NCBI GenBank assembly: GCA_963969595.1
Contig: OZ018412.1
Span: 4,032,501-4,096,500 of the forward strand
DNA: 64,000 nt
From: Neckera pumila
Taxonomy: Eukaryota > Streptophyta > Bryopsida > Hypnales > Neckeraceae
Reading direction: 5' to 3'
Shown: in pieces, positions 28,100 through 64,000 of the stretch
Numbering within the stretch: position 1 is the first letter of the stretch
How the letters are laid out: each line of letters opens with the position of its first letter
Notes under the pieces: generated by a model
Database searches by the model: none
Told to the model about the DNA's origin: nothing
Seen by the model: the letters and a program-made list of their open reading frames with translations, nothing else
Program-made: the position numbers and the translations under genes

Positions 28100-28130
28100 A
28101 TGGCATATTTCATTAAAATGGCGGTATTCC
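28100..28130 (+). repeat. Left terminal inverted repeat of the giant element
   Basis: Begins ATGGCATATTTCATTAAAAT and ends GGCGGTATTCC. It pairs with 56,379-56,409; the only mismatch is at position 13 (A against G). Confidence 0.88.
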
Positions 28131-28131
28131 A

Positions 28132-28227
28132 TGTGCCATTTTGACGGTGTGCCATTTTGACGGTGTGTCATTTTGACGGTGTGCTATTTTGATCGCTTGT
28201 CATTTTGACAATGTGCCATTTTGACGG
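28132..28227 (+). repeat. Subterminal 16-bp tandem repeat, six units
   Basis: Six consecutive 16-mers with consensus TGTGCCATTTTGACGG, directly inside the left inverted repeat. The core GCCATTTTRACG also occurs in both terminal repeats (as its complement at the left) and next to the right terminus (GCCATTTTAAAGG at about 56,368). Clusters of a shared motif at transposon ends are typical transposase-binding sites; that function is inferred. Confidence 0.85.
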
Positions 28228-28839
28228 CAAGGACTTTTGCGATGTTTTCGATGTGTGCCAATCAAGTTGTTGGTCAAATGCCATTGTTGTATGTCATCAA
28301 TTGTTGCACGTAGATGAGTGCATGAATTTTCCTATATGATTTGCAAGTGATGCCTTGATGGTGGCCATAGATGCAGTTAGCCCAAGTTATTTGGATTTTG
28401 TAGAATGTAGAATGTTCATAGAATGTGGAAGTTATTGAGTCAGGTTTTTCTTTTGCTCCCTGCATGGGAAGGGATGCGTTTGGTGTCGTTGTTATTATAG
28501 GAAGAAGTGTAGGTGGATGGATGTCATTGTGTACTATTCTTGAGCTCGAGAGCGACAAATATGAAGTTCAAATATGGCCCTTTTGAATGGACAAAAAATG
28601 AAAGGAAAAAAGCTAGGTTTGTATTTTGTGGAGAATGAAGTGCTTAGTACAGATATTGCTTAGTGTGGAGGACATGCTTGCTACTGTCTACAAAGAAGCT
28701 CAACAATCACAAGCGATATTCATGCTATGAAGCAAGTGATTACAATCTGTACTACTGTAAGTATAGATTTAACTTCTATAGCATGTACCCAGTGGCAAGG
28801 CCGACAGAGGTGATGATTTTTGCAGAAAATTCATACTTC

Positions 28840-31800
28840 TCAGCCTTGTTGTTCTTCCTCTGCAATGCGACGTAAATTATCCACCGCAAATTGCACTTGT
28901 TGTCGAGGTGCCACAAAACTGGCCCCGTTGTTCTTCTTCGGTTTTCAAGATGCCATAATGGCATCCGTTGAAATGTAGTCAGGATGTTCTGCCCTGTTGT
29001 CAATCTTCCATTTGAAATTGGTCCTTGTATCCCACCCTTTGTACAGTTGTCCCACGTGCTTTGCTGTTCCGCATGGTATGAGCCATTGCACTAGAACTTC
29101 ACGAAAGTGTTAAGCTTCGGGGTCAAATTCAGGATTCGACATTGCTTTACCAAGCCACACGGGTTCAGGACAATTCTTCGCTGCTCTCACAAATACATAG
29201 AAATCTTCCCGGATATCGGTGGCCACGTTGTATGCTCGTGGTGGCCTACCTTCGAGAATGCCTATGTACGGGTCTTCTAGGTCGAGTTCTTCTCGGGAGC
29301 GTCCGTCTTGCATGAGGTCTGTCGTGAAATCCCCTGGTTGTCGAGTTTGAGGCCAAAATCTGTCATTCAACTCCGTGGATAGTGGGGCGTCTTCTTCCAC
29401 GCTTTTACGGATGGCATTTCTCACGTCGGTCCAATATGTCACCAATTGTGACATGTGCGCCTTGTACTCAGTCGTCCCGTCTTCTTTTGATATGTCGGTC
29501 CAGTGTTTAATGTATTCGTCCAAGCCACGCTCAATCTCTGCTTGGTTAGTCATTTTATTGGGTTTCACGTGATGGGGATCACCTTTGGGAAGTAGAGGTT
29601 TGTGATTGGCATCTTCCTTCCATAACTTCACTCCGTTTTTGGGCAACCACGTAGTGTCGGTACATGCTAATTTGTATTGCATGATTGGCTAGCCATTGTC
29701 GTCCATGAAGAATTTGTATTGCCTTCCTTTCGAGTGACCCACGAGTTGTTTCTTGTTCATCCCAATATAAGGTTTCATGAATGCCTTAAAATCAGGCACT
29801 TCTTCTATGAGGTGAGGAATGAACGGAACTTCTTTGATTTCCATGTACGATTGCATCAGCAATGGCAAGGTTGGGTGGTCTTTCTCGCGGAGCGCCATGC
29901 TCCACCGCCCGAACGATGCGTCGATGTCGTCGTGTGTGTGCCCCACTATCATGAACAATACCACCACTTCTTTCACGATCCGCCTTGCAACTAAGAGGGA
30001 CCAGAAACAAAACACATACCTGTTTTTGTTTTCCCTCCACGAGTTGTCCATTTGAATGTGTAACACTGGTGGCAATGGGAGAGGTTCGATTGGTTGGGAA
30101 GGAACGTTTCGCAAGGAATTGATACAGATCTCACTACCCTTGAGTAACGCGCGATACAACTCTGTGCTCCCGGCCCTTGCAAATAATGAGCGGGAGGACT
30201 TCACAGGGGGGGCTTCCAAATCTCGCAAAAGTTTGGCGATTGATCCTATACTGAAGTTGCTGTTGTTCGGGAACACATCCAAACTGTAGTGTGCATATTT
30301 GTCGTCCCCGTGTCCATGTGTAAACATTCCCGTCACTTTGACGGGGAGTTTCATGAATCCATCTAGCGCCTTCGTTTTCCATGCTAGTGAAGGACATGCT
30401 GTTTTTGAATGGTCCATTTTGTCATGCATGATGGATAACAGTTGGGATGGTCGCAATTTGGATAACCATCTACTATGGTAGTACGCATGGCGACAGGCTT
30501 CTTGAAGAAACAAGTGCTTCTCAAAACGCCTCTGAATTCGTTGATAGTCTTCTGATCCTAGTGCAAATGATGCACGTAACTGCTTTAAGTTGTCACAAAT
30601 GCTACATCTTGCAAAGGAGTCTCCTTTTCCTTTGATGACGTATTCTGAGAAGTGTTTTTTCCGAACTTTACTGAAGCAAGGTTGTGATAGTGGTGACAGT
30701 CCGAGTTGCTCGTTGGCCTGCAAACAAGGCAAAGCGCAGCGGCATTACTTTTGGAACGTTTACAAGGGATATTCTAGGTTGCTATTGACTTGACTTCTGT
30801 TATGTTCATACGACGTCCCACCTATGATTCCATAATATGTTTGTCATATTGCAATTGATGAACGATTCTTACCTCATTCACAGTTGCCAGTAATTGATTC
30901 CATTCCGTCCCGGCTGGGAGAACTCTTAGGTTCACTTTCTCGCCGCTGGGCAAAGTGCGTGACAAATGGGGCATGTGGTCAGCCTTGGCTTCCAATAGTG
31001 ACCGCAAAGTCTCGATGGCTTGAGCGGTTGCTACCCTTGTCTTCGTTCTATTACAATTCCCATGGGGAGCACCTTTCATGTCAGCTTTTGCCTTTGCTTT
31101 ATATCTCTCAAATGTGCGGAGAGGGACGTTGTGAAGAATCCTCCATGCCTTTGTACAGATGTTTATGCCCTCCACGGTAATGAGGTCTTTTCCCCTTCCC
31201 ACTTTCTCGTGCGTTGCCTTGTGGACATCCAAATTTTTGGTGGACTTGATTTGAAAAGTTTGTAGGTGCATTTCAGTGCGCAATGTGCGAACCGTGGTAG
31301 GATTGAATTTGAAGGTACATTCTCTGTCGCAGCAACGTTGTAGACAGGCACGTGCAACGTTGTCTCCTGATAACAACTTTGTCGCTTTATCTACCAAGGC
31401 GGGGATACGAGCTCTCCTCTCATAGCGATATTGTCACTTGGTCACTCTTTTCCGACTTCCCTCGAACTCCTTATGGATGGCATCTCGTTTGCGAGCATGA
31501 TCGTAGATACTGACATATCCAGTATTGCCGTGGTACAACAATTGCCGCATGGGCCAACGCAAACATGTGTCCGCGACGCTTGGATCCCCATCGTGCACAT
31601 CCAACACAACGATGCCGACATCATCTTCCCCCAATCGATTTTGCCTGTCCACACAAGCGTTTGGATTCGTAGTGATTATAATCACTTCGGCAAAATTGGA
31701 ACCATCAGCTCGTTTTGCAAGTAGAGCCTTGCCAGACCATTCGTCGCGGTCAATGCCCTCACAGTTGGGAATGGGATTAGTGTCGACGTCTGACCCAAGG

Positions 31801-31844
31801 AATTCCTCCATGTCAACATCCTCCTCTTCAAATTCTAGGAATCC
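28840..31844 (-). pseudogene. DUF7869-like DDE transposase, coding exons with four stops
   Basis: Probable transposase of the surrounding element, next to its left end and reading outwards. Exon 30,873-31,844: acidic N-terminus, then a cysteine cluster (CLQRCCDREC). A phase-0 intron at 30,718-30,872 has GTAAGA and TTTGCAG borders. Exon 28,840-30,717: ARCSICDNL cysteine pair, HDKMDHSKTACP, LHIQMDNSWRENKNR and VGHTHDDIDASFGR. The last three look like the three acidic stations of an RNase-H-fold DDE enzyme, and the QMDN...ENKNR / GHTHDDID pair is the pattern I associate with DUF7869 proteins of plants and protists. A C-terminal reader-like segment ends PVWLGKA...VLVQWLIP. In-frame stops: TGA 31,434-31,436, TAG 29,689-29,691, TAA 29,110-29,112, TGA 28,945-28,947; the frame resumes unchanged after each. 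The likely true stop is at 28,840-28,842. Family assignment is from memory of the motif. Confidence 0.75.
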
Positions 31845-34800
31845 CTGTACATTCAACATTCCAAGAGTACTAACAATTATTTGACATGGACTTTCAAATT
31901 GGTACGTTGCCATCCCGCAGAGATCACTATCAATTTTTGGAAGACTACAAGAGTTAAGAAATAGGATTCATTTAATTTCAGGAAAGAAAATTTATATAAT
32001 ATTTTGGGCTTACACAAAATACCTACGGTGAACGGTGGTTGAAAAATTAGTACTAAAATGTAGTGTACATGTAAGACATTAGAAAGAAGGGGCAAAAACT
32101 GTAACAATGCATGAATAGGGAGGCCAACATTTTTGTACATTAGAATCACATTTGTATGATCCTATACGAAATGATTTTCGGATATGTATCTCCTAATTTA
32201 GAAATTCTTGTTCGTCAGTTGGATGATTAATTTTTTGAAGTCCGTTATATAAAATATTGAAAATTTAGGAAATATTACGAATATCAAAGCTAAACTACGT
32301 TTTAAGAAATTCAAAGTCAACCAAATCATGGTTACGTATTAGCAAGGTGACACATCCCAGACAAAACATCCAGCGTAAGTAAGATTCACATGACAATAAA
32401 GTTTTTGTAGCTATCATCCCTCTTGAACTTTCGAAATAGTTGACCACACTGTTAAATAGCCCTTGTAAATGTATTGCTGACCTAACGTGTTCTATATCTA
32501 ATTTCCCTTTCTTTGTCTTTTTATATGTTTTGAATTTCTTCAGTCTCATGGACAATTTTCATTACAAAGAAAAATAATACAAAGAACCAAGGGACCATGA
32601 TCCCGGCGAAGTATACACATTTTTCACATTTGTTTTGCTTTTTTGGATAAGAAGCTATAAACCAAGAGCCAACTCAGAACACCAACCCAAACATGCACAA
32701 TAGCCAAGCCAGAGCACCTTGTAGGATGAAGGTCAGAAGCGATCATAGCTAGGAGTGAATAAAGGGTATAGGACAGAAGCTTAGGCAAAAGACCCCATGT
32801 TCAGGTGAGGAAGATGACCGGTTGACTTTGAATCCCTTCCAATGAACACATTCTCCCCCGAGGGGGAAAAAGGATTGAGCTCACGATGTTTATTTAGTGC
32901 ATCCATTATTAACCCCTAAATGCCCTAAGCTTGTGTGCGGCTTCCTGGAATTTTCTTTCAACTGAACAAAATGCCAACATTTTGATAAGTTGTATTAATT
33001 TTTTGGAAACTGTAATCGTAGAAATTAAAACTGAATATGTTTAGAGATTTCATAGAAAAAGAAAGCAGTATTACTTAAGGAGTTAAAGATCATAAGGCTT
33101 GACCATGAGTGTGCTAAAACTGTAGAAATCATTCAATCTTCATTACACAATTCAAAACTAAGAAGTTGGTGGTTTATAAAATATGACCTTAAAAGGCGAA
33201 ACTTGAATAATCCCATTGAATTGATGGCTTCTTAAAATATACTCAAGTATCTCGAATAAATCTAGTTATAATTTCAGAAAATTTTAATAGATGCCATCTT
33301 CATATTTTGGCCAAGGAGTTTTTAAAAAATCTAACCCAATTGCAAGGAAGAGAAAATAGTATATCAAAACTTTACAGGAAAAAATTTACAGATTGTTTGA
33401 CTCGAATCTCTAGCTGATGTGTACATGGATTTGAATTCATTTTTATTGAGATGATGTGAAATTCTCAATAGTAGTTTTAGGGTGATCAATCTTATTAACC
33501 CTTAAATCTAAAGCTTGTTAGCTTGCTTAGTTGGGAAGAGGAAAAAACAGAAATTGCCTATTCTTGTGAGTTGTTCGAAATTATAATATGAGGAACTTGC
33601 AGACCATTACAGCATGTGGATTGAAAGATTACAATGTTTGATGTGAAAAGATTTTCCATTTGTTCTTGGAAACTACGGTTAGTAGGCTTAGAAGGTTCAA
33701 GTCTCTTGGAGTAAATATTTTGTTGTACACAGACATGAGTATTGTGACAATTCCTAAGTACATGTCAATGATAATTTAGAGAAGCAAGTTTGGTGTCTAG
33801 CTTACTCGGAAACAACCTTCAATGCAAGGAGGTCCAATACAATGGCAATGCAATTCTAATTCTATTATGACTTCCGTAGTCAGTAGATATCCTTATGGAT
33901 TTCCTAAATGACACAAGCATATGGAATCTATTGGGAAAACATTCAAATTTGACTACATATGGCTAGTTAATAGGGCTCCACATCAATAGAAAAGGATTAT
34001 TATTGAAGCCCCTCTAGCATAACCAATAAGGTTTTAGTTTTTTATTTTATTTTTAACAAATGGGAGACCCATAGCATTACGAAACCACCAAGTACACAAC
34101 TACCAAGGTAGAAGGTTGCACAATGAAGAGAGGATGAGCAAAAGAAAAGAAAAGAGAATAGAAAAAACTAAGCAAGGCAAGGGGACCCTCCTTGTTCTAG
34201 CTACTCTGGTTGCCAACACGAGTGGCAAGAATGAGTGACTGCACCCAAACTAAGTAAAACTTGCTCTTCATGGAGTCCGATTGAATTGGACGAAGTTTTG
34301 AGCATGTCTTTGGGCTGTAAGAAACCAACGAGGTTTCACTATTCTCGGGTGTCATTTGGGTACTTCTGACAAGCCACATTGTACTATATATTTGAAAGTC
34401 AAATTCAAAGAGTTGACGCAACATTTTTCAAAAGATGCCTTGGCGCCAAAGGACGGCGAAGAAGTTGGGGAAGAAATAAGGATTCTATTTACACGAAGCT
34501 TGTAAATGTTCACATCTTTTGTCCATTGGACAAACATTTGACCAAAAATTACTTCATTGGATCTTATCCGAATTTTCAGAATTACAATGAATGGACACTT
34601 TGTCTGTACGGGTTACCAATTGTCGCTTGGTCAATCCTAAAATACCCATAGGAATGCTTCCTGCCCATGCTTCCTTCACTGATTTTAACTTCCTCTTACG
34701 ACATATGTCTAGGGGAGAGGAACATTCTGAAACCAACAATCTATGCAATTCGACACTGGAGTTTTATAAATAAGGCAATTGGCGCACGCTTTTCTACGCA

Positions 34801-36477: not shown

Positions 36478-36756
36478 GCGGATTTAGGGGGAATGAAGGA
36501 TGCCAGACTGCCAAGCGGTTTCTCCGTCCAAAAAGAATTTAAAGCCTTGACAGCCGATGTTACTGGCAAACTGAATGTGCAAGAGATGTGAGGGCTAACT
36601 CCTTGCAGTTACTTCCCAGCTTCCCATTATACCGAGCTTCCTGCATTAGACGACAAGGCAAGCAATGTGAAAACCGTAATGAAAACAATTAAATTGACTG
36701 GCCAAGCATCAACAATGCAAGGAAATGCGATTACAATGTGTGGTAAGAACATAGTC

Positions 36757-37562
36757 TAGGCGGGACGTCCTAGACACTGCGACACGGACGAGCCGGTCCA
36801 TGACAGGAACGTGCCAAACTGAGTAAACATTAGGGTGGGCACCCTAAACCATGCGCTGAAGGACCTCGTTCATGACGACAAGGTGACGTACCAAGAAGAG
36901 TTTAGGGCGGGACGCCCTAGACACTGCGACACAGACGAGCCGGTCCATGATAAGAACGTGCCGGACTGATTGAACATTAGGGTGGCCACCCTAAACCATG
37001 CGCTGAAGGACCCCGTTCATGACGACAAGGTGACGTAACGAGAAGAGTTCAGGGCGGGACGTCCTAGACACTGCGACACGGACGAGCCGGTCCATGACAA
37101 GAACGTGCCGGACTGAGTGAACATTAGGGTGGCCACCCTAAACCATGCGCTGAAGGACCTCGTTCATGACGACAAGGTGACGTACCAAGAAGAGTTTAGG
37201 GCGGGACGCCCTAGACACTACGACACGGACGAGCCGGTCCATGATAAGAACGTGCCGGACTGATTGAACATTAGGGTGGCCACCCTAAACCATGCGCTGA
37301 AGGACCCCGTTCATGACGACAAGGTGACGTAACGAGAAGAGTTCAGGGTGGGACGTCCTAGACACTGCGACACGGAGGAGCCGGTCCATGATAAGAACGT
37401 GCCAGACTGATTGAACATTAGGGTGGCCACCCTAAACCATGCGCTGAAGGACCCCGTTCATGACGACAAGGTGACGTAACAAGAAGAGTTTAGGACGGGA
37501 CGTCCTAGACACTGCGACACGGACGAGCCGGTCCATGACAGGAACGTGCTGGACTGCGTGTA
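36757..37562. repeat. 147-bp tandem repeat array with paired palindromes
   Basis: Five to six units; the same base (the C of CGGGACGTCC, a T in the fifth unit) occurs at 36,761, 36,908, 37,055, 37,202, 37,349 and 37,496, exactly 147 bp apart each time. Each unit holds two dyads: GTTTAGGGCG...CGCCCTAGAC and TTAGGGTGGCCACCCTAA (a perfect 18 bp palindrome), about 73-75 bp apart. The two halves of the unit are recognisably related (palindrome, then a GGTCCATGA or GTTCATGA stretch), so the array looks like a dimerised 73-bp monomer. GC-rich, in contrast to both flanks. Not coding. Confidence 0.9.
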
Positions 37563-37800
37563 GTTTAAGGCGGGCGGCCTAAACCTGCCGGAAGGACTGG
37601 GTTCGTGACAAGAGCGTGCCTTAACGAATACAGTTTAGGGAGGGCACCCTAAACCGTCACAAGGATGACCGCGTTGACGACATGAACGTGCCGAAACAAG
37701 TTCAGGGAGACGTGTCTGAAGCAGTCGTCCGCGATGTATTGATCACAAATCAGAGCGCCCGCTCTAAATTGTCTGAAGAAGACTCTGTGCCGACCACATT
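37563..37800. repeat. Diverged single monomers flanking the 147-bp array
   Basis: At least four further palindrome-bearing monomers of roughly 50-70 bp follow: TTTAAGGCGGGCGGCCTAAA near 37,564, TTTAGGGAGGGCACCCTAAA near 37,633, TTCAGGGAGACGTGTCTGAA near 37,699, and CAGAGCGCCCGCTCTAAA near 37,751. The last matches the palindromes at 44.8-48.1 kb better than those of the array, linking the two sets. Confidence 0.7.
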
Positions 37801-39828
37801 TGATTTCTCATACTGATTTCTATGAACGTAAGACCCATTATGAAGCTGGTTTCAGACTATGAAAGTGCTTTGCATACACAAGAATTAAATCGTTCTATTC
37901 AATGGATCCAAGAATACCAGTAATAATGCAGCTAGTTTCTGTCAAGAGATTCGGACTTTAGTATGTTGAAGTAGAGCAATCAAGGACGTCACGAAAATTC
38001 AGAAACTAACAAATTCAGCAATTCAGTGACAATAAGCAAACTATGAATTCAATTGTTCAGCCCCTGGACAAGATGATTTATGCATCCTGAATATTTCGAC
38101 AAGGATGCTTATGTGAATACTGAATTCAGTCAAAAAGATCTTACAAACCATTGAATTTCAAGTCGATGAACTCCATCATATTCTGGACTGCACCAATTTT
38201 CAAAGAGACAGCTACATTGTGCAATCAAGTGCACTGAATCCAAGTGAGTGACGGCCCCAACTAACGGAGGAATGTTGGAAGTTCAAAATTTCGGGAGTGA
38301 CTCCAATCAAAAAGCAATGCGGATAAACCACAATATGTACAAACCACAATAGGAATGAAACTCACAATGAAATGAACTGCTAAGCAATTCTGCCCATACT
38401 TATATGATGCAGTCGATGCGCACACCAGGTCTTCAATCTCCGGAACTGAGGACGTCTCCACCGAAACTAAAAGACGTCTCCACTGAAGGCAGCCTTTCCT
38501 TCCTGTACGCAAAACAGCAGGCCGATCAAAAACACCAACATCACAAGCAATAAGAATCCGTCCAACTTTGAAATCAAAACAAGAAACGCAAGGAACCATG
38601 GAAAAAAGCAGCGGTTTTGGGTTAGTGTACAGTAAAGTTATGGTACCGGAAGTGGAAGTGGAAGAATTAATCTTCGGCGCGGCAATGCGGTGGTCTACAA
38701 CAACCTTTCACTTCGTCAAACGGGATGCACTGCGAGCAAGGCACAAGGTCATAGCGACAGAGGCAACGGACTCTACGAAGAAAGCAAACTTCGGCCACAG
38801 TTGCATTCCACTTCGTGAAGGCGGTTTAGGTCGGGTCATTTAATGCGCACAGGAATTGCGGCGGCCATTGTCAGGCACTTCCTTGTTAGAAAAAAAAAAA
38901 AATTTGTTTTGGACTTCTTTAAACACATGGACTACAACCTCGCAATCCACCTTTCTTTTTAATTTTAAAAATACCAAAAAAATTGTTATGAAGGGGATTT
39001 TAAAAAAAAAAAAAAAAAAAAAAAATGAAGATAAAAAAAAAATTCCATGAAAAGAAAATTGTCCATGAATGGAATATATATATAAAAATAAAAAAAAATA
39101 AAAAATTAGAACGGAATATTGTCTATGAACGGAATACAAAAAAATATAAAATAAATAAATAAATAAAAATAAAAATAAAATTAAGAAAAAAATATAAAAT
39201 TAAAAAAAATATATATATATATATTTTATTTTTTGTAGACTTTCAACTTATAACTTCAATATAAAAAATTTGAAATTCAAAGTTTGTAGTGTCAAAAAAA
39301 TCAGCAAATGGCGGTCAAAGTCATATGAAATTGCTGGTCAGTGTTCAAAATAAAATTTTATTTTCAACTTTCACTGCTAAATAATATCTTCCAATCTATA
39401 CGGTCAAACTTCATGAAATTTTTACCACATCATCTTTGACAAGTGAAGTATGAAATCCTATGGTTAGATTCTAAATTGTTTTTTTCTTGTGTTCTTGGAT
39501 GAACACAGCCTAAATGGCAGTTTTGGGGGGTTTTCCACATGAAAATGGCCTTGGGAATTTAGGGGTTCAGCTATTTTTGAAGTGTACTTCCGCATCTTTA
39601 ATCAACCTCATATTTCTGGGGTGACCAATTTTATAGATGTGATATGCAAAATGAGAATTGAAAGATTTCCATAGTTGGAATACTCTCATGATTGAACATT
39701 ATCATTTTCCGATTCATAAATTATATTGTTGTATTTTCTTTTCATATGTGGTCCTAACATGTCTAGTTTGAATTTGTACGGTCACGATCGAAAAGAAATT
39801 CGCACAACTTATGAAAATGTTGTTTTAA

Positions 39829-39890
39829 GTTCAAATAAAGTAAGAGGGTTTAGGGTTTAGGGTTTTAGGGTTCAAATAAAGTAAGAGGGT
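39829..39890 (+). repeat. Interstitial telomere-like repeat between direct repeats
   Basis: Three TTTAGGG units (39,846-39,870) sit between two identical copies of GTTCAAATAAAGTAAGAGGG starting at 39,829 and 39,870. The arrangement looks like a 41 bp local duplication of telomere-like sequence. Confidence 0.8.
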
Positions 39891-41249
39891 GCAATTTGGG
39901 AAAAATTTAAAACGTCGAGAATATACAGAACCCATAGGATCTCTAACGTGTCCAGTTCGGATTTGTATGGTTACAATAAAAAAAAAAATCATTGATACAA
40001 CTTATCAAAATGTTGGCATTTTGTTCCATTTAGAACAAATTCCAAGAAGCGCCAAACAGGCCTTTGTCAATTTGGGCTTCAAAAACATTTGTACAGTAAG
40101 ACCTCTCTAACCTGATTGGTCCGGGACTGCCTAACAAGATTGCTTTAGAGAGAGTAATTGCTTTAGAAAGAATTTGCACTACACAAGAAGTTGCCCAAAG
40201 GATACATGAGGAAAACGACCTGCTGGAACTAATTGATTTTTCTTTTCTGGACAAGGCCGAGGTGCACTACTATTCCTAGGGAAGGTGTCATTTTGTTCTA
40301 CAGCTTATTTTAATCCCCAAGTCGGGACCACCCGGCTCTATTTGTTTGAAGAGGTCTTAGGGTGTTCAGAGGATCAATTTTTGCAGGTGTTAGTGTAGCT
40401 CTAATGTTCGATTTCAAATTCATGTATCAAGAATACAAAAACAATTGTGATGATTCCACTATATTCAAAGATATTGGAAAAAATATACAAATACGCTGAA
40501 GAATAAGTTCCCTGAATTGGCGCATATATGAGTTTTAAATAACCATAATGAAGGGTTTCGGAAGAGAAGGGAAAAAAGAGTAAAGCAAAATAGGAGAAGA
40601 AAACAACAGAAGGCAGAAAAGATTTTAAAAATGTAGGGTGCTATACTAAATGGAAAATAAAAAGTATTTCTAACAACACTTCGCTTATAGTAAATTACAA
40701 ATATAATAGGTAAACAACCTCCCATAAAGCAGGCCCCGATCTCAGGTGTACACTAAACTTCTAAGCTAATGACTCCATTGAGGCGAGTGCATAATTTATA
40801 AAATCTATTTTTCAAGCACACTTATAACATGAAGACCAATTTAATCTTTGTATATACGTAATACCGTTGTGATTACACCTACTCTATCAGTGTAAATATA
40901 TCGTACATTGCATTTGGACAATTACAAATCTCCAAAAGGTGCTACAACTTCTTCACATGTTTATTTTTCAATTATCCCGTAAATGACAAACATGCGTTTG
41001 TTGGCTGTCCCGTGTGGATCATTTACTACATTTTTAAAATGACATGTGGCCAAAAGTAGGGAAGCTCTTCTTTTGGGGAGATAAAAAAGTATAGAGTATT
41101 TACAACTAAAGTAGGAGACATGCAAAGGGTGAAATGTATTCCAAGTAAGTTAATAGGCCTACTAATGTGATCCTTTCACTTTTTGTACATCTAATTTAGG
41201 AACTGCTCATTTGGGTCTTCATTTTCACCATTTACTACTGTCTATATGT

Positions 41250-41310
41250 GGGTTTAGGGTTTAGGGTTTAGGATTTAGGGTTTAAAGGTTTAGGGTTTAG
41301 GGTTTAGGTT
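41250..41310 (+). repeat. Interstitial telomere repeat (TTTAGGG)n
   Basis: About eight near-perfect TTTAGGG units, with one GATTTAGGG variant and one TTTAAAGG interruption. Plant-type telomeric heptamer, internal to the giant element. Confidence 0.9.
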
Positions 41311-42877
41311 TTTGGCTTATCTTCATAAGATGATGCTGAATCCATTTAATATTTTCTGGGCTACCAAGAACATTGTCATTTTCAATGATTCATAAACAAA
41401 GACTTTTAATATAAAAAAAATAATCTTTATAATAGATCTACCTTTCTTCAATGTATTATTCTTATAAGTGATTTTCTAGGGTACACACGTGTTAATAATT
41501 TTTAGTATTTTAAAATCTTTAGAAATTTACAAATAAATATTCAAATAGGAAAAAAAAACAAATTCACATTGTCAAGCATGCACAAGGAATTCAGGAAAAC
41601 AAAAGTGTCTACTAAAAAAATTCAATGCAAAATATGAAGATACTTGTAAAACCATCCAATGTACCTTGCAAAAAAAATTGGGTGGAAGAAATAGGGGGAC
41701 AGAAGGGGAAAAGAATCGCTGTGGCATGGGTAGTATAAGTAATGATAGGGTACCATAATATAAGTAATTTTGCCGAATTATATAATTATACGGGCCCCTT
41801 TTTTAAGACCTTGGAGATAAATAGACCCCCAAAAAATACCTCCTTGCCGCACGGGGGTATAAGACATAGAAAGAGTGATGCACCCAAGCTGGGTGTATAG
41901 AAATTCATTTTCCAAATGAATATTTTAAGTTTTGTGGTCAACAGAATATTAGAATTAATTATGTTTTGTGAGTTCAAAAAACAATTGCTACATTTGGAGA
42001 CACCTACAAGCGTATGGTATATTCTTACTATATGTTCAAACAGTTATTGGATGGTATGTCATTTTCTCGGAGGTGCAGTAACCGATGTCGATATTTGAAT
42101 ACAAGCAAGTACACTAGAAGAAAATTCAAGTTTTCTGTTGTTTAGGTCTCGTTGATCTAATGAATTTTTGAGAAAATTTCTTTGATTTCAACAGATTTCT
42201 ATAAAAAATTGACCAGATCATCGCAACCAAAACAACAAAATAACTAAATTTGACACTACTGACAAATAAAAGTTTTTTCAAAAAATATTTAAATTAAGAA
42301 TTATAATCTCATTTGGTATACTGTACTATTCATAGAATAACATTGCATGTCTTCTAATAACTACAGAATGTTGCATAATAGGATCAAGTAGAAAAAATGA
42401 TAAACCTAGAATACCCCCATAGATATGAAATTAGGATGACAAGTATCCAGTTTTGGCCGGCCTTATTAGTTGGTCCAGCTATAAGTATAGTAATTGTATA
42501 ATAATTTGAGGAACGTTGAAGCAGCTGTTGTAGCCGGGTGATGAATTGAATTGTAGCAAGGTGTATTTTTTTGCCTTTTTAGTTTCATATGATTGTGTAG
42601 TAGGAAGGTGCATTTACAATTCTTTCATTTTTATATGAATGTGTTGTAGGAAGCTGTATGTTCCTTTCTCTTTTAGTTCATATATGAAGTTGTTAGTTCA
42701 AAAATAGAATGTTACATGAGGAAATTGTATTTGTGAATGTGTTTATGTTCTTGTTTCATTCCATTTTCAAGATTCCATATGAACATTGAATGCATGTATA
42801 CTGAGTACTCCTGCTTGAGAGTTGGTAACTTTGTAGATTTCAGAGACACAGTCCATGAATCCTGAAGCGCAAATTCA

Positions 42878-43125: not shown

Positions 43126-43239
43126 CTTATTTTTTAGTAAATATATCCTACAACATATTCCAGCCAAATAGGAATTATAATTAATAAAAATGTGAAATTT
43201 TTTTTTAAGAAATTTAGTATAATTAATAAAAAATTCAAT

Positions 43240-43835
43240 ATGGTTTTATAGATTTATGTATACGTGTAAATTTTTGAATAATTCCATTTGATGTATGAGA
43301 TGAAAATGAAGTTTTATTCTAGTTTGCAAGTACTTATGGATTCCTTCCAAAAAAAAATGGAAGTCCTTCATTTAACTCAATTTTTAATATTCTTTGAAAA
43401 AAATAAAGGCATACAATGTACAATGAACCTTACAACATTAAACCATGGGGATTGACATTTTTCAATTCCATAATTATATTCCGTAATTTAGTGTTGTCAA
43501 TCATTCTCTACTTTCTTTCTATGATGTATTTTTTTCGTATATGTTTTGAAATTCAAAATGATTCAAAATTTTCAAGCATGTCGTGAACTTGAATACAAAC
43601 CATTAAATTTGAGGAGTAACCACAATTTTGGACATTGTTCATTTAAATGTGGTCTTTTCAATTGCAGTTGCCCGATTCTTCGAGCTTCCGAAAAAAGGAT
43701 TCTTGTCAAATCAAATGCTTTTATCTTGCAATCTACAAGGTGGAAAATTCAAATTTTTTTTCTACATATTCTCAAACTATCTTACTACAAGATCCTACGG
43801 TTACAAATGTCCGAAAGAAATAACTTTCTAGAATT
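43240..43835. repeat. Internal fragment of a TTAA-type element
   Basis: Homologous to the interior of 15,402-16,331 and 20,753-21,300 (GATTTATGTATACG, CATTGGGATTGACATTTTTCAATTCC-like text, GATCCTACGGTTAC), but without either terminus. The right edge abuts the GC-rich start of the cargo locus. Confidence 0.6.
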
Positions 43836-46000: not shown

Positions 46001-47931
46001 GTGCAGAAGTTCGTGTGCACAGTGAAATGGAGTCATTCTTGGAGAGCAAGCCACCACTCACGGGCTACTTGAGAAGAATACCGTCAGATCATATTCACGA
46101 GTCCTGGAAACCGCACATGGAAGATAAAGTCCCTCTGCAGTTCATGTCGTCCAGGGCCCTGTGGACTGTCGAGATGGATTTTGTGAACGACTCCCCCGTG
46201 TTCAGTCTGGAGCTTGGATTCACTAGAAATGGCGGTCCTAGGTGGAAGTCATTCAAGTAGATAATAGTCATTAACATCAACGTCATGCAAGAGGCCGTCC
46301 TCATAGACGTTGTAAATTCCACAAACAATGTCCTCGGAGTCATTGTAATTCGTGTTGAAGATCGCATGACGATGTGCACCGAACGCCTAGTAAAGAATCG
46401 TGACAAGGTGCCCCAAATATACAAGGAACTTATGCTAGATATTCAGGATAGATGCCAAGCCCATGCTAGTGACTTTAGGGAAACCGCGAAAATGATTAGC
46501 ATGTACCTTCAGAACGCCAGTTCTATACACACGGCTACGCTAACACAGAAGATGGTCTCCCAGGAATCTCATCATCGAGAAATGGACGCTCAGTCGAACC
46601 CGATGAAGAAGGCCAAGAAAACTGCCGCCTCAGGCTCCGGAGCGGTCCCCCGCTCCCGGCCACCACCCTCAACAGCCCTCATCGGGGAGGCCGCCGCTGC
46701 TGCTCCGAGCCCGCCTCGGAACGTCACAACGGGGACGGTTGCCCCTGTCCCAGCAGGGCAAACCCGAAGGACGGCTGCATCCGCTCCAAGTCGGCTTAGA
46801 CCAAACCCAGCAAGCCAAGCGCCGGTCCAGAACGAGCAACAACAATCCGCAGCCGGCCATGCTGCACCACGGCAGCAACAAACTCCAGAGCGGAAGACGG
46901 CGGCACCCGAACCATCGAACAAAAGTCAGACGGGTGAGAAAGCGGGGGACGCTCTCCCCAAGGAGAGGCGCCCTAATGTCAAAGTCAAGACAAAGAAACG
47001 CAAGCCCGCACAGGCTGACGCAGGTCCATCCTCGCTTGCGGAAGGCGAGGATGCGAACAGGGGGACCAGGCGACAGCGGGTCAACCCACCGAGTTCAGAG
47101 ACGTCCGAAGGAGCCCCGAGCATGTCGACGCAAAGCTCATTAGCGGAGTACCCGGAAATAACCGAAGAGCAAGCTCGGTCCGTCGCGTACAAGAAGAAAG
47201 ACGGGAAATGGGTTGACAACCCAAATACGGTTCCGTTCAATCCAGCGGACATCCCTGAGAAGCTGATAGTGCCGGTGGATTTCAAACCGCAAGCTAAGCG
47301 CGGGCAGGAATCCGAAATGAGGAGGCGCTTGAAGGCCGAGGCCCAGGCCAACAAGAAGTTCAAGGAGAAATCGCGTTATATGTACATCTTCGGCCGTGGC
47401 AATTACTTTGAGTTGAACTTGGAGGACATGGTGAACGCAGACGAGAAGTCGGGCATATCTATAGGCCGCTTCAGGATGGTGGAGTGGTGAAAATTCTCGA
47501 CCGAATCGTGAAGCTGAATTTCACGAAACAAATCCTGACAGTCATGCCCGACACGCCGGTCAGGCCAACCTGCTGGAAGGACTGCGTCGATGCCGGGAAA
47601 TTCAAGATCATCAACGGCCAACACACCTGGAAGGCCGCTAGGAAGATCACTTCGGGGGAGTTCGCCGTCGACGACGATAACATATCCAAGACCATGCAGA
47701 ATTGGATATGCGAGATCGTATGGTCCGAGAACAAGGACCACCTTCACGCGTTGTCATCAAAGTGCAACGACGGGAATACGAGCATCCCGTTCCTGACGTC
47801 TGTGTCGGCAACCATCGTTCACTGCCGGCACCTCTAGGTGGCCGCAGGAAAACCGTCGATATTCCGGAAGAATGCAAATCCGGAAGACCAGGACGAACTC
47901 AAGAGGTTCCAGGTACTATGACAAGCCAACA

Positions 47932-48116
47932 CTCTAGAGCGGACGCTCTGATGTTCACGTCTTGTAGTTATAATCATGCAATACATTGTGGATGAAGTAG
48001 TTAATAATACTGCCAGAGATCAGTGGACTAGCTCTACATGGTTCAAATTGAATGTCCCTCACCACATATCACTAGTGTCTGCGGTAGGAGGTAGGATCAG
48101 AACGGCCGTCCTAAAC
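47932..48116. repeat. Two more dyad palindromes in the next cargo intron
   Basis: CTCTAGAGCGGACGCTCTGA at 47,932-47,951 and GATCAGAACG...GTCCTAAAC at 48,095-48,116, both inside intron 47,913-48,162. This intron and the palindrome-bearing intron at 44,711-46,006 both start GTACTA followed by ACAAG within a few bases and both end ATGTGCAG, so they may be related to each other. Confidence 0.7.
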
Positions 48117-51100
48117 CTATGTGTTACCTGCCCAATTACGTATGTCTTCCGTCCATGTGCAGGTGTTCCGGGAGAAGGTGGAGCAGAGTTTTGATGCAAC
48201 CTTCAGTCCAAAGAACACCAGTGGGACAAAAAAGCCCTATGAGTTCAAGAAGGGGGGGGAGTGCAAGCTCTTCGTGGCGTCGGACGACACATGGGCGATC
48301 TGGAAGAGTGTCTTCGACTCGGAGGATTCCGGCAATCTGCACGACCTCGATTCGGACTGCCCTTTCAAGAAAAAGGTAGACGCGGATGGGGATTGCAAGC
48401 CATACAAGCCAATCCCGTGGTTCCAGAATCAGTTGAGGGCATTGTCCGGATTGGACGATTTCGCGGTCGGTGAGCTGGGACGCAAAATCTTGGACGCCCC
48501 ACCCAAAGTGTACCTGAGGAAGCCGTATTGCTGGAACACGGCCCTCTCACTCGGTCAGTGGTGCACGAACAAGAAGCACAAGACAGTACTCGTCAGGGAG
48601 TTGGTAGCAAGGGCCAAGCGATTTGGAATTCTTGAGGCCGTGGACGTCTTCGACAAGGATAGTGGTGACCTCGCCCTAGAGAACTGGCGGAATCTGAAGG
48701 CGGTCCTCGGTATAAACGGCTTCCACATGGGGGTTCTTCAAAGACTTGGTGATTCCTGGTTGAAGGTGGAATGCAAGTCAGGGCGAAGAAGGAACCGAAA
48801 CCGAATGACCTTGTCGCGGCCCTAGACAGAGTCATGCAGAACAACGAGAGGTCGACTAGTGTCGGTCAGTACTCACGCGCCTCGGTTTGCAGGTGGAGTC
48901 AACCAACGATGAATTTTGACCCTCAACTCTATCTCTACCGTAATGAATATTGGTCGACCTGCTCTCCCGAACCCGCAAGCTGGAAGTACGCCGAGGTCGG
49001 GATCAGGGACCTCCGCCAATTTCCCAAGGTGGGGAAAATGGAGATCAACTCTGCGTACAAGTATGTGCTGAAGCACGTGGACAAGGTCACGAACAAGAAT
49101 ATGTCCAAGCTCGTGCACACGTGGATGGTCATCCTAAACAAGAGGAGATTGGCCATAGTGCAGAACATGCTGAAGGACGTGTTGCCGGGACACAAACTCA
49201 CGCGCGACTGCGTTTACAAGCGCAGCAAGGGCGAACCGCTCGTGAAGGACAAGAGCAAAGACAACGTCATGTACCTGCAGAGATACTCCAAGAGTTTCAT
49301 GAACTCGAAGCTCGTGGACCAGGAGGGCATCGTTCCAAAACTTTCGGCGGATGAAGAGGAGCCGTTGGAGACGGACGACAAGAGCTACAAAACCGCGGAT
49401 GTCTGTCGCCATGACTATCCGATGATGTTGTCCGATTTTGAGCTCTGGTATGAGACGTACCTCCGCTTCATCGACAAGTTCTGCAGGGACCAAGGCACGG
49501 TCATGCTCTTGTTTGCCGGGGCCAAGCCTATCTCTGCCTGCGCGGTAAGATAGTGACCTGCTCTTTCTATTATCCCACTTATCGTATCCTACCAAGTTGG
49601 TGAAGTCTAAGTACCGCATTATCTAACAACGTCTTGGCTTCTGACTGCAGATGTTGTGCCGTAGCTCCGTGTCCTTCATGCTCCCATCCAAAAAAGGTCT
49701 TTTCCGGCACAGAGTTCACAATCGGATTGGTTCCATGATGTGGCCCGACTTCTTGGTCCCTCCTCCATACGCCCTGAGGTATGTTTACGACAGGAACACG
49801 CCTCCGATGACGTTGGAGGAAGAACCGATTCGGACAGCCGAGGAAGTGGAGGCCGACGCCGCCCGGAATATCGTCGACGAATTTGCTGACGACGACAACG
49901 CCGGCGACGTAGCCGGTGATGAACCTGTCGTGGGAGCCGAGTCCGAAGGTGGGGACGACGATGACGTATCCAAGAGCGACGACGACGACGACAGCGAGGA
50001 TGAGGATGAGGATGAGGACGACCCAGGAGACCGCGAACCTAGCGATACGGAGTCAGATGACTTGGTGGAGCAGTCACAAAACCCGGCGGCCAGCGAGACG
50101 ACGGTCACAAACGATCTCGCTAGTGAGCGCGGTGCGGTGACACCTCCGGTCCCCCGATTCCATTGTCAGGGTCAAGACAATCGTCCTCAGCGTGTCGCTC
50201 CCGGCGGGAGTCCTGCACAAGCATACACTCCATCGAGGCGGGATCAAGGCGGCCGCTTTGAAGACCTTGACACTCCGTCGCCCCGCCCTTCGTCTCCGCG
50301 GGACCAAGACAGGAACGAGGATGACGAGGCCTTGGATCCTCCATCGCCAAGGCCCCTATTTCCGTCTGTGCTGGATCAAAGCATCCGTTCCGAAGGTGTT
50401 CACCCTCCTGCTCCCCGACCGACGTCTCCACCTGGGCGGGGTGGGGGCGTCCCATCTGATCATGTCGTCCCTCTCACCCTAACCTACCACGAGCCATCTC
50501 ACGATGTGGATATCGTTATGACCCCTCCTTCCACCATCCCTACCACTCCGTCTCAAGTGGATCAGAACGCACATTCTGATCAGGGCGGATCGTCTTCACA
50601 GGCCGCGCCTCCACCTTCATCGAACGCGCTAGCTGCAGGAGCTACCACTTCTACTGGAGCCGAATCGGCCACACCTGAGGCACCCCTCAGGTTGCAACTT
50701 GAAGACATGCAGCAGCAAGTGGACGACATGAAGTCGCTTATGACTGCTGACGAGTTGCTAAAGTTCAACACGGTCCGTGTCGAGGTGGGCTCCGTGCCCA
50801 ATCCGCCGAGCAATAACTCCTTGGCAGATAGGGTGAAGGAGACGCGGGCCCGTCTTGATGGAGTGATCCTGGCTCCCGTGGGCGGTAAGGAGAAGGTCAA
50901 GATGGTTACAATTGCCCAAGTCCAGATCGACACCCTCGTCTCGCAGCTTCCTGCACCCTCTCCCGAGGAGAGAATATGCATCGACTTTATCCGGAAGATG
51001 AGGTGAGATCTGGCCGCGGAGAAAGCCAAGGAGAAGGCCGAGGTTGAAGTCATCGTCATAGACGATGATGAGGACGATGAAAATGACGTTGAGCTTCAAG

Positions 51101-51619: not shown

Positions 51620-53744
51620 ATGTCCTCGCCCAGCCCAGCGATTGTACCGGTGAGTGGTTCTCTCGACCCCGAGTTCGATGACCTCGCCCTCAGTCAATTT
51701 CCTTTCGTTCCTTCCTCTGAACCCGTGCATTGTTCGAGCTTCAACGACGATGACCCCTACGCCCTGGATGTGGAACTTGGAGATGTTGAGGTCTCCTTCA
51801 CTAACTTGACTGCGGAATATGATCCAATGCTGCAGGCCCCGCTCGGTCCGAGGCAGACTTCGGTGGCGGAAGCGGACCCTGCCCAAGTGGACACGCTAGC
51901 CGCGGATCAAGAGGATCCCACGGTGGGTAACCCCTCCACATAGCCCCCTTAGTTGTAGATAGGCGTACGCTATGTGAGGGAGTTATGCCAGGCCGATCAA
52001 TGTTCGTCCTAGAGAGGGGGCAGAGGTGTGGGCCGTAGTGCTAGCGGGTGTCATTGCATGTTAGACGTAGTCGGGACAAACCTTCGCCCACATTTGTACA
52101 AAATACTTCAGATTGTAAACATTGTAAACTATTTTGAATATATTGATTTTTTTTCATTAAAATCATGTGCGCTCGATAGGCGTTGTGTACATTGTTACTC
52201 GGTGCACTTGTCTTTCCTGTTGCATTTGATGTGCCTTGTAGTCACCCTCGTATAATGTGCGTTCAGGGTGACGAGGCTCTTCTGGTCGACCATGAGGCCG
52301 CTGTGCCGTCACATGGCACGAATCCAACACTCCATTGTGCTGCGCCCCCTTGCCAATAACATAACCCAATCGTCGCCCATACTTCTGTGGATTTGGTCCC
52401 TCCGGTCTCCTTGGACGTGCCCGCGCCCAGTGCCGTGGCTGTCCTCCCTCCAAACATGGAAGAGGTTGTTCCCGCGTCGAATGAATTCCTCCCTCCCGTG
52501 CAGCATGATTTAGCAACTCCCGATGCTGTGCCAATACTTCTTGGAATTGACTTGGAACTCCCAACTCTGGCTGCGGACGAGGAGGTCGCACCCATCCGAA
52601 TGGAAGTGGAACCAACCCCAGCAACGGAGGTCGGCCTTCCTCTAGCGGCAAACTTGGCGGCAGACGTCGTAACAAAGGTAACTCGCAATCCAAGTCTCTC
52701 ATAATTGCCTGCTCGATTTGGTAGCACGGTCCTTTCATCTTGGATTTGATCCTTCTAGGAGGACTTCATTCCTGCCATTTCCGGAGTTGCGTTTTATGTC
52801 GTCGTCAACTTCCTCTACCGTTTTTATAAATCGTACTTAGAGTACGGGGATCGCCTACGCAGGCATCGGTGCCAATACCTGTGAAGACCCCCGCAGAAGC
52901 TGTCGTTAGGGACTACTTGATCATTCTGGAGGTAGAAGGGGTCCTGTGTCGTATTAAGCACGAGGGCCACGTTGTGCCCGAATCCATGCCCGCGGGTGCT
53001 ACGCCAACCCAACAGGATTTTCATCCCACGAGACGTCACGTGTTCGGCGAATATACACTATACTGTCGTCCCGGTATGCGCCCCTTCTTGAAGGGCTTGA
53101 CCTCCAAATTTAGATTAGCCATCTGGACGAGGCTGCCGGCCGCCATCGCAAAGCTGTTGGTGAATTTTCTCTTCCGGGGCAGTGAGACGGATAGGGTCAC
53201 AATCCTGGCGTTGGAGGACTGCACGACGATCATCCGGTATCGGGCGTGGTGGGAGTGCAGGTGCCCCCCCGTGCCGAGTTTTCCCCGTGATTGGTCCGTT
53301 ATAAAGTGTGATTATCCCCTTCAATTTTGTCCGGCGCACCCCACGGACACGGACTGCAATACCTCTATCGCGTCCGACACTTTCCTTGAGTTTGCCGACC
53401 ACCCGGAGGGGCTTTTGCGGCTGAAAGTTCTGCACAAAGTAGTTTGGGAAGGAAATAGGTTTTCCTCGACCACCATGAGGGCCAATTCTTCCAACACCTT
53501 GCTCATTGACAGTTGTCCATTCAGCAACATTCTCAACCCATATTACAATGCCATATTCCCAGAGTCGTACACGGGCGGCGAGGAAGATGACTTTCTTCAC
53601 CGATCGTTGTGCCCGTACCTCTCGGGTCTGCTTCGATCCCATCGCAGTGTCACCCAATACGTGTCAGAGAACCCACCTCCTTTCGGACAAGACGTGTCGG
53701 ATGACCATGCCATATTTCGCTCTGGACGGATCCTCTTGAAGTAG
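51620..53744 (+). pseudogene. FCP1/NIF-like HAD domain protein, catalytic residues lost
   Basis: Exons 51,620-51,922, 52,267-52,677 and 52,863-53,744, joined in phase 0. The first two encode an acidic, Pro-rich leader; TAA at 52,357-52,359 interrupts the second. The third is a full FCP1-homology domain without stops: LIILEVEGVLCRI at motif I, RPGMRPFL...FRLAIWTR, the C-x-C insert region, VLHKVVWEG, then SNTLLIDSCPFSNILNP, AIFPESY, and the NPPPFGQ tail typical of plant members. FCP1/NIF phosphatases use DxDx(T/V) in motif I; here the first Asp is Glu, and the later DDSP is DSCP, so phosphatase activity is very unlikely. It directly follows the ParB-like gene (2 bp gap) and may be one gene with it. 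A binding role for a phospho-peptide such as the RNA polymerase II tail is speculation. Confidence 0.65.
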
Positions 53745-53906
53745 ACGCTTCTATATCGACAAGTCCAGAAATTAGCTTGGTTTGAAGATCGGTCCCTCGT
53801 GTTACGTTATCCAGCCTTCGTCGGACAATATTTTAAAGTCGGAACCGATGTTCACCTCCAGAGAAGGGGAAAGTTTCCTCATTTCACATAGAATCTTCAT
53901 GTGCAG

Positions 53907-54077
53907 GTCCGGCAACGCGCACGCGTCTTTGTGAAAGGCGGTCTTGCCGGATCCAAAGTCGCTACCAAACGGGCCAGGCGACAACGGATGCACATGGCAG
54001 AAGGAGTGGGCTCCTCCAAAGGCTGTGCGGTTCCGGAGGATGCAGAAGGGGACGTGACGTCCGCTCGGAATTGTTAA
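53907..54077 (+). CDS. Probable last exon of the FCP1-like gene
   Basis: After a good acceptor (CTTCATGTGCAG|) an open frame of 56 codons ends in TAA at 54,075-54,077. It is basic in the middle (KVATKRARRQR, a possible nuclear localisation signal) and acidic at the end. The acceptor sequence is like that of intron 47,913-48,162. The matching donor is uncertain: after the TAG at 53,742-53,744 the frame stays open for about 46 codons, and a weak GTGTTA donor at 53,799 would fit the phase. Confidence 0.4.
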   Translation, partial: VRQRARVFVKGGLAGSKVATKRARRQRMHMAEGVGSSKGCAVPEDAEGDVTSARNC

Positions 54078-54603
54078 ATGAATGTGACTTGTACTACAAG
54101 CCCTTACTATAGACTCGGGAACAACTTCACTATAGTGTATACATCACCCAATATTATTGGATTGTAGACAATAGTTTACTTCCTTTCACATTCTTTTCCT
54201 AAATATAATTCAAGAATACATTCCCACAGCATAGCAATAAAAAGTCGACACATATTATGATAGGTCGAGTCTTCTTACTATAGCATTCTTCCCCTCTTGT
54301 TGAAATCATAAGTAGAACAAAGGACTTCTTCGTTTTATGTTTCCAAGTTGTCCTTCAATGGACCCAAGTGTAATGTATTCACACAAAGAAAATCGCACAA
54401 CCACTGTTTGAGTTCAAGCTATGATGTGAAGAAAGTTGGATCCCAAACCTTGTAAATCCAAATTTTTCAGTACTAGTAAAGTATCCATTTTGGGAGTTTC
54501 AGATGTCTTTTCGAGTTCGCAGTCTTTGTTGTCGCTCGGGAATAAATTCACTTCATTGCACGAAACTCCATTTACCAATGATTCCACCCATCCGTCCATT
54601 ACC

Positions 54604-55232
54604 TTAACTCCTAAATGCCCAAGGCCTATTTTGGGCTTTCTGGAATTTGCTCAAAATTGAACAAAATGCCAACATTTTGATAAGTTGTATCAATTTTGTT
54701 TCAATTGTAACCGTACAAATTCAAAATGGACATGCTAGACATCTCATAGAAAAAGAAAACACAACAATACCACTTATGGAGTGAAAGATTCTAATGTTTG
54801 ACCATGAGGGTACTGAAACTGCAAAATTCTTTCAACCCTCTTTGCACAAATAAAATTTAAAAAGTTGGTGACCAAAAAAATATGAGGTTAAAGGGCCTAA
54901 CTTGTATAAGCCCGATCAATTTACGGCTTCTTAAAATCTACTCTACAATTTTTTTAAATGAAACTTGAATGTGATTTTTTCTCCAAGATCTAGTGCATTT
55001 TAGACTCATTTCCAAGAGCTCTCAACACTACGGGAAGTGAAGATTGCAATTGATACCCTTCTTCAAAAAGTTGAATAGAAAAATCACTGTCATTTATTTT
55101 TAAGATCGGATTTTTGATGCTAAAATTAGACTCCAAGAAGAATTTTCTAGAAATAGCAACTTCATTAGGTTTTATTTAGCTTCAAAGTTCTGCAAACACC
55201 AGAAATGGGTGCCTTGGGCATTTAGGGGTTAA
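54604..55232. mobile_element. TTAA-flanked element, 0.6 kb subfamily (629 bp)
   Basis: Complete: TTAACTCCTAAATGCCCAAGGCC at the left and GCCTTGGGCATTTAGGGG then TTAA at the right. Homologous to the start of 32,909 and to a fragment at about 39,950-40,070. Nested inside the giant element near its right end. No coding capacity. Confidence 0.75.
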
Positions 55233-56378
55233 TCTATGAGCGCCACGTAGGCCAGAATGTCGCCTTCTAGTTTTCGAAGATTTAACAGTTTGACCATTAT
55301 GATCTTTTCATTGCTACCATCTAAGGGTCTAAATCCTTCCCTTGGAGCTTTAGACATACATCTACCACCAATTAAAAATCTATGCAATTTTTTTATATTT
55401 TAGCTATTTTGATGGCACAACAAACCCTACAGGTTTCCAAAGCTATTATTGAGTCTTGGGAAATCATTGTCTTCTTTCATTTTCGGAGGGACAACAATAT
55501 AGGGCACACCAATTTACGCATACATTGTTGACTATTTGGTGGTCTTTTGTTTGCTCTGTTTGTTAGCTTCAAATTTCTTGGACCGTGTTGCATACCCAGT
55601 TTGCATGTTGGGTACTACTATCAAAAAAACTGTCAACAAGCAAAGGCGTCCGTGCTTTCTTTCATGGATTTAGGATCCATGTCTAAATCTTATTGAATTT
55701 CAAAGTTAATTTTAAATTGAAGAAGTAGAAATTCCTTTTTTCATTTCAACAAGGGCAACGGCACAGGATGCACTATCGTATACATAGGTCAATTCTCGCA
55801 ATTACCTAAAAATAGTTTCCTTTCTATAGTTTGACAACTCGATAGCCAGATTTGGATTTTTTCAATTTCAGCATTGAAGCTTTTTCCAGACATTCCTAAT
55901 TTTGGATTGATTTTGTCCATTCATGCATTCCCCCCTTCCCTCTTTTCCAAGGATTTTTGATAACTTATTTTCTGAAGTTCTTAATTGTTATGAATCACGT
56001 TTTTCTGATTTTCAAGAATAACTGAGGAATTTTAAAAATGCTCGGCATTTTCCAAATTTTGCGAAGTTACTTACAAAACTGACCTATACGTACAAAGCAA
56101 CGCTCCAACTATGCAATTGCCAAATTGAATTCCTCCCATGACATTCACTGAAGCCCGAATTTCCACCACGTGCGACATGAACGTCCCACATGGCGCTCCT
56201 TTATCCCACATTGAGCCCTTAGACGAAATGGTTAATGCTATGTTCAACTCATACATGTGTCCATGTTGCCCCTCAGAAGCCCGAATCACCACGCTATAAC
56301 ATTCATTTTCCTACCTTGTGCCCATCTTTCCACTAGTTTTCGGCAGGCCTCCTAAACCAGCTTTCCCGCCATTTTAAA
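55233..56378. other. Right subterminal region of the giant element
   Basis: AT-rich, no gene. Unlike the left end there is no 16-bp tandem array; only one extra GCCATTTTAAAGG motif precedes the right terminal repeat. Confidence 0.5.
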
Positions 56379-56409
56379 GGAATACCGCCATTTTAACGAA
56401 ATATGCCAT
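56379..56409 (-). repeat. Right terminal inverted repeat of the giant element
   Basis: Complement of 28,100-28,130 with one mismatch, ending AAATATGCCAT. GTAT (56,410-56,413), the second copy of the target duplication, follows directly. Confidence 0.88.
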
Positions 56410-63772: not shown

Positions 63773-64000
63773 TATGTACTTTGCCTTCTTCAGTTTCGAA
63801 CACTTCACACCAGCAATCTGCACGTCCAGAGCGGCAAGTTGCAGCGCTGCATACTGTGGTGTAGAACTTGCACACATATGAGCAAGTCTAGAAACACTTG
63901 CCAAAGCAGGCAGCAAGCGCAACAATGCGCTCCGATTCACATGGTGACACTCAAAAGAGAGCCACCCACAGCAAGACTCACAAGAAAAGTCCAGCACAAA

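Follow-up and report, generated by a model that had tools for sequence, protein, structure and literature searches.

Results

A LecRK locus interrupted by a block with inverted ends

The window, by which we mean the whole 64-kb stretch of moss DNA that was analysed, carries on its plus strand the two parts of a LecRK receptor-kinase gene separated by 28,310 bp. The legume-lectin part lies to the left (27,524-28,099; Lectin_legB, E 6.7e-39 for the ORF 27,524-28,144), and Pfam places the end of the lectin domain and the kinase to the right (56,414-58,051), with PK_Tyr_Ser-Thr at E 3.3e-38 and Lectin_legB at E 0.00018, the latter under the curated cut-off. A paralogue of this locus, 85-89% identical to it and without the insert, is found on the minus strand at 11,071-15,009. 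The original prediction took this paralogue, at 12,011-14,301, to be uninterrupted and the receptor kinase gene to be split by the element. The insert is indeed missing from the former, and LecRK parts do flank the element in the latter; yet the lectin and kinase parts of the paralogue are spread over three ORFs in different frames, and the split copy has an extra in-frame TAG at 27,521-27,523, so the insertion did not hit a proven working gene. Frame breaks or stops are thus present in both LecRK copies. The locus as a whole is an inverted duplication of ~4 kb per arm (11,071-15,009 versus 26,653-58,957 minus the element), and self-comparison also pairs separate pieces of ~110 bp nearby (10,925-11,034 with 59,413-59,516 and 15,007-15,117 with 26,389-26,499).

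The block between the two LecRK parts (28,100-56,409) is bounded by terminal inverted repeats (TIRs) of 31 bp, the left at 28,100-28,130 on the plus strand and the right at 56,379-56,409 on the minus strand, where a 19-bp tandem copy overlaps it at 56,366-56,384. The end sequence, ATGGCATATTTCRTTAAAATGGCGGTATTCC, is inverted at the opposite ends, the termini start ATGGC, and the two arms are identical at 30 of 31 positions, compared with a best agreement of 22/31 among 100,000 random pairs of 31-mers drawn from the window. Searching the 64-kb window with up to three mismatches recovered the two element ends alone, with no hits in 100 shuffles, and the same tolerance yielded no second TIR pair inside the element; the window holds one copy of the family. 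GTAT flanks the block on both sides (28,096-28,099 and 56,410-56,413) as the target site duplication (TSD), which is 4 bp long given symmetric TIRs; if the ends are allowed to be asymmetric, the direct repeat extends to at most 7 bp (CATGTAT). These searches bear out the original call of a TIR transposon with exact 31-bp ends and a GTAT duplication.

Comparison of the whole window with itself indicates where the host sequence stops. On the left flank the inverted paralogue matches as far as 28,099 (85.7% over 1,514 columns). On the right flank the match begins at 56,407 (87.7% over 571 columns), an overlap of three bases with the element that arises because the element's terminal CAT is the same as the host CAT. 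Flank queries cut at the element edges gave 87.7% identity to the paralogue on the left (1,229 columns) and 87.7% (568) and 88.7% (1,367) on the right, although in this comparison the match ends are set by construction, the queries having been cut there. When the flanks are fused with a single GTAT, they are collinear with the paralogue through the insertion site and remain in frame, reading DDFMY-VGLSSSTG, that is ...DILDDFMY-VGLSSSTGLLNM..., to beyond the end of the lectin domain. The earlier empty-site argument, in which the paralogue was held to show the site before insertion, thus holds: the paralogue, used here as a stand-in and not as an allele, reads straight through the insertion point. 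The TIRs, the doubled GTAT and the continuity of the paralogue together establish that a 28.3-kb TIR element was inserted at 28,100, and the block 28,100-56,409 is a TIR-transposon insertion.

Subterminal iterons and nested repeats

Immediately inward of the left TIR are six 16-bp iterons (TGTGCCATTTTGACGG; 28,132-28,227, plus strand). Their core, YGYYWTTTTGA, has six plus-strand sites in the window, all of them in the array, and one minus-strand site at 6,968; the iteron core GCCATTTT is present in the TIRs too. This arrangement suggests a putative transposase-binding array.

Nested repeats make up part of the length of the element. An internal repeat occurs in three places (32,902-33,244, within 39,604-40,079 and within 54,595-54,943), a tandem array of 147-bp units occupies 36,733-37,693 (TRF: 36,759-37,556, 5.4 copies, 93% match), a dispersed repeat at 43,195-43,816 is also found outside the element near 6, 15.7, 16.7 and 21 kb, and a MITE-like repeat with inverted ends TTAACYCCTAAATGCCC is nested at 54,604-55,233. 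All told, 1,058 of the 28,310 element bases recur in the outer window (1-26,600 and 59,001-64,000) and 2,266 belong to within-element repeats, including the TIRs and the 147-bp array. MITE-like repeats with the ends TTAACCCCTAAA / TTTAGGGGTTAA, which we presume to pair with each other, are located at 6,051-6,988, 15,403-16,329, 23,668-24,601 and 54,604-55,233, among others, and so occur both inside and outside the element. An interstitial repeat of the plant telomere type (TTTAGGG) lies inside the element at 41,250-41,312, in keeping with the land-plant origin that is indicated by the combination of a legume-lectin domain with a kinase in the flanks.

A DUF7869 gene next to the left end

Gene 1 (29,110-31,913, minus strand) is transposase-like, matches DUF7869 (Pfam PF25273, E 3.8e-43) and ends ~1 kb inward of the left TIR. 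An ORF at 29,689-30,744 holds the DUF7869 core and the candidate D-D-D residues, and a 155-bp GT-AG intron lies at 30,718-30,872. Relatives were sought by a motif scan of genome contigs, which returned 14 loci. Three of these (L007, L012 and L014) resemble the DUF7869 core with E values of 2e-9 or lower and are all confirmed by Pfam; ten of the other 11 are no better than E 0.07 and the last shows the motif alone. Viral contigs gave no relatives, either in four protein scans or in one motif scan. The best relative, L007, has a single open frame that spans 963 codons between stops and aligns with three of the four gene 1 pieces at 31%, 51% and 35% identity, the 51% being that of the core. Because all three align to the one open frame of L007, the last three pieces of gene 1 form one gene. 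The first piece (31,437-31,913), which is likely part of gene 1, has no match to L007 up to E 1.

The three relatives lie on contigs with bacterial labels and are probably carried by eukaryotic contaminants. The L007 contig (1-4,327) is labelled as a Synechococcales MAG and carries a DUF7869 gene, the flanks of which show, by eye and uncounted, palindrome-like motifs of the form TTTAGCTCGA...CTAAA. L012 and L014 are on contigs in Bacteroidetes-labelled bins, and their DUF7869 relatives are apparently split over several frames, whether by introns or by decay.

Two of the candidate catalytic residues, namely the aspartate of the (M/I)(H/S)D strand and that of Q(M/I)D, are each conserved in all four sequences with coverage (the window, L007, L012 and L014), whereas conservation of the third D is given by construction, since it lies inside the motif with which the loci were found. 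The gene 1 core fits a D-D-D transposase on these sequence features, and DUF7869 proteins may be credited with a putative transposase activity. Structure prediction was of little help here, as the two models (mean pLDDT 33.5 and 42.1) are too poor to show a fold; a fold search with the second returned nothing at E <=0.001, and comparison of the DUF7869 core with the PDB by sequence retrieved PP2A subunits alone, at E 0.19 or worse.

That the element carries its own transposase-like gene, as originally proposed, is correct in that a DUF7869 gene is on board, but this gene is interrupted. An in-frame TAG (29,689-29,691) falls between two L007-aligned pieces, and a TGA (31,434-31,436) lies just before the L007-aligned part; whether the latter is a second stop depends on the first piece being part of gene 1, and it is counted here as probable. 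Given the one clear in-frame stop and this probable one, autonomous movement of the copy is unlikely.

GC-rich cargo on the opposite strand

The plus strand between 46.3 and 53.7 kb is GC-rich, coding-type sequence that is frame-broken. GC content is 0.52-0.58 in four 2-kb bins (46.1-54.1 kb) versus 0.36 outside the element. The multi-exon cargo locus first proposed here is borne out in part, as coding-type sequence with broken frames. Gene 2 (46,261-51,006), on the strand opposite gene 1, comprises ORFs at 46,261-47,490, 47,412-47,837, 48,115-48,825, 48,753-49,553 and 49,645-51,006, with frame changes near 47,480 and 48,750 and a TAG at 47,835-47,837. A stretch from 47,598, KFKIINGQHTWKAARK, looks ParB-like, and a gene 2 fragment compared with the PDB up to E 10 matched two Noc (ParB-family) sequences alone, at E 0.60 and 0.63, over this motif. 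Pfam detected neither a ParB nor a methyltransferase domain in gene 2. We take these sequence matches as a hint that gene 2 may be ParB-like.

Further along the same strand, an ORF at 52,830-53,744 resembles the NLI-interacting-factor-like phosphatases (Pfam PF03031, E 1.8e-9). Enzymes of the NLI type usually carry the phosphatase motif DxDx(T/V); in this ORF the site reads EVEGV, and the product may therefore not be an active phosphatase. Comparison of the ORF with the PDB by sequence gave nothing at E 0.01. When five ORFs were searched against PHROGs, four had no match and the ORF 48,753-49,553 had one at E 0.046. Scans for tRNAs (bacterial code) and Rfam families found none in the 64-kb window.

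Discussion

Placement of the element

We propose that the element is a giant cut-and-paste transposon, probably of the Sola superfamily (Sola-1-like), inserted in a land-plant LecRK gene. Available excerpts describe Sola elements as having 4-bp TSDs, TIRs of 11-1124 bp and a DDD transposase, with a length mostly of 2-9 kb and in some cases >15 kb, and as being found in Physcomitrella (PMC10741241). The TSD of the moss element has this length given symmetric TIRs, and its 31-bp TIR falls within the range. Giant-Sola-1-like is the best reading because the element shares the plan of Sola1-1_Ec32, a 21.5-kb element from Ectocarpus in which, according to the accessible part of its report, the transposase and an accessory gene with ParB-like and methyltransferase domains occupy opposite strands (PMC12477816). 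The likeness rests on descriptions of Sola rather than on a comparison of sequences, and DUF7869 is a candidate Sola transposase; in the literature searched, no paper mentioned DUF7869 or PF25273.

Several better-known types were considered and rejected. Elements of the CACTA/EnSpm type have ends that begin CACTA and a 3-bp TSD, and the ends here begin ATGGC with a TSD of GTAT. The MULE/Mutator TSD is 7-12 bp (PMC10741241, in the part available), compared with 4 bp, or 7 at most, here, and the pieces scanned contain no MULE domain, which sets aside Mutator and Pack-MULE. A Starship was dismissed as there is no recombinase domain among the scanned pieces. The Pfam scans behind these statements covered 10 + 9 + 2 pieces of the window, and thus part of the element ORFs; in these pieces DUF7869 was the only known transposase domain.

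Proposed mechanism

In the mechanism we envisage, the DUF7869 protein would act as an RNase H-fold transposase of the DDD type, binding both the TIRs and the array of six iterons at the left end. It would cut the element ends and join these, at a 4-bp stagger, to the target DNA, giving rise to the GTAT copies. The transposase gene of this copy would now be dead, and since gene 1 is stopped at least once, the element would have moved either before gene 1 decayed or in trans through a working copy. The opposite-strand locus, with its weak ParB-like motif, may correspond to the ParB-methyltransferase accessory gene that Sola1-1_Ec32 carries; the ORF with NLI-phosphatase similarity could be a captured gene or a second accessory gene. 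One might go further and imagine a lineage of giant Sola-1-like transposons in land plants with a conserved opposite-strand module, ParB-like and NLI/HAD phosphatase-like, that would mark or protect the chromatin of the element itself and so enable growth past 25 kb, with DUF7869 as the transposase family; this is a speculative extension that we think is probably wrong.

Alternative explanations

The Sola-like feature of the element might be its TSD length only, in which case this giant TIR element would belong to a different superfamily, whether KDZ-like, MULE-like or an unnamed one with DUF7869 as its hallmark. The lack of any paper found that links DUF7869 to a superfamily leaves room for this, as do the TSD readable up to 7 bp and the size of KDZ elements, which can be as long as 30.3 kb in Ectocarpus and, in Chlamydomonas, 31.7 kb (PMC12477816, in the excerpts available). 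We nevertheless consider it unlikely, because the TSD comes to 4 bp with symmetric TIRs and the Pfam-scanned pieces show no known transposase domain besides DUF7869. We regard as more doubtful still the notion that the element is a non-autonomous giant with TIRs served by some other transposase acting in trans, the DUF7869 gene being mere cargo. An in-frame stop in gene 1 and the presence of nested repeats are in line with it, and several giant families of Ectocarpus are reported to have no transposase (PMC12477816, same excerpts); yet no second TIR pair of the same family was found inside the element, and the end of gene 1 lies ~1 kb from the left TIR, a position that a resident transposase gene could occupy.

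An assembly joint or a segmental rearrangement could in principle mimic an insertion, and the evidence comes from a single window, without read support, at a locus within an inverted duplication. A joint would not be expected to produce TIRs identical at 30/31 positions, a doubled GTAT and continuity with the paralogue; on these three features misassembly was ruled out, and we give this explanation almost no weight. The reading that we favour remains that of a Sola-1-like giant transposon.

Significance

The giant DNA transposons that turned up in the literature searched were from fungi, algae and animals, and a cleanly bounded 28-kb example from a land plant would widen the known host range. 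The presence of the ends, the target site and an insert-free paralogue in one window provides exact end sequences with which copies can be sought, and the placement offers a candidate superfamily for the uncharacterised domain DUF7869. It also indicates that a receptor-kinase locus can gain 28 kb, apparently in one event followed by later nested insertions.

Comparison with known giant transposons

The element is a well-bounded new example of an already known type of giant transposon. The original prediction had related it to the giant cargo carriers of fungi and fish, and in concept only; giants with accessory genes, Sola-1 among them, have been published for brown algae (PMC12477816, in the part accessible), so that this comparison was drawn too narrowly. 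Its claim of novelty was likewise too strong. Sola1 is already recorded in the moss Physcomitrella and in Capsicum, according to excerpts of the respective reports (PMC9033089; for the moss also PMC10741241). Among the matches listed, seen as titles and the starts of abstracts in a search that mostly lay outside subscription papers, there was no land-plant giant transposon of such a kind, and we make no claim to a first sighting in a land plant.

Teratorn is a piggyBac element combined with a herpesvirus. No tyrosine recombinase, piggyBac or herpesvirus domain was present among the Pfam-scanned pieces of the window. The Starships, whose classification is built around a tyrosine recombinase (PMC12134995), and the fish Teratorn (PMC6431247) resemble the moss element in being large mobile DNA with extra genes, as far as the accessible parts of these reports describe them. 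The giant KDZ elements share its size class and the presence of accessory genes in the excerpted account (PMC12477816), but the moss element shows no transposase domain besides DUF7869 among the pieces scanned. With the Sola1 of Physcomitrella it has in common a land-plant host and, by description, the 4-bp TSDs and the TIRs of the Sola superfamily, and it differs in its 28.3 kb from the length given for most Sola elements in the available text (PMC10741241).

The closest parallel is with Sola1-1_Ec32. In Ectocarpus, giant KDZ, EnSpm and Sola-1 elements are generally >10 kb and can be >30 kb, for the most part contain nested TEs and often hold accessory genes and pseudogenised transposases, as described in the part of the report available to us (PMC12477816). 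Both Sola1-1_Ec32 and the moss element are giant DNA transposons in which a transposase or transposase-like gene faces an accessory gene, a putative one in the moss, on the opposite strand, and the nested TEs and pseudogenised transposases reported for the Ectocarpus giant families have their likeness here. The accessory gene of Sola1-1_Ec32 has a ParB-like domain where the moss element offers a weak hint of one, and a DNA-methyltransferase domain was not detected by Pfam in the pieces of the moss element scanned. Unlike its algal parallel, as far as that is described in the excerpts, the moss element resides in a land plant, extends to 28.3 kb and carries an NLI-phosphatase-like ORF.
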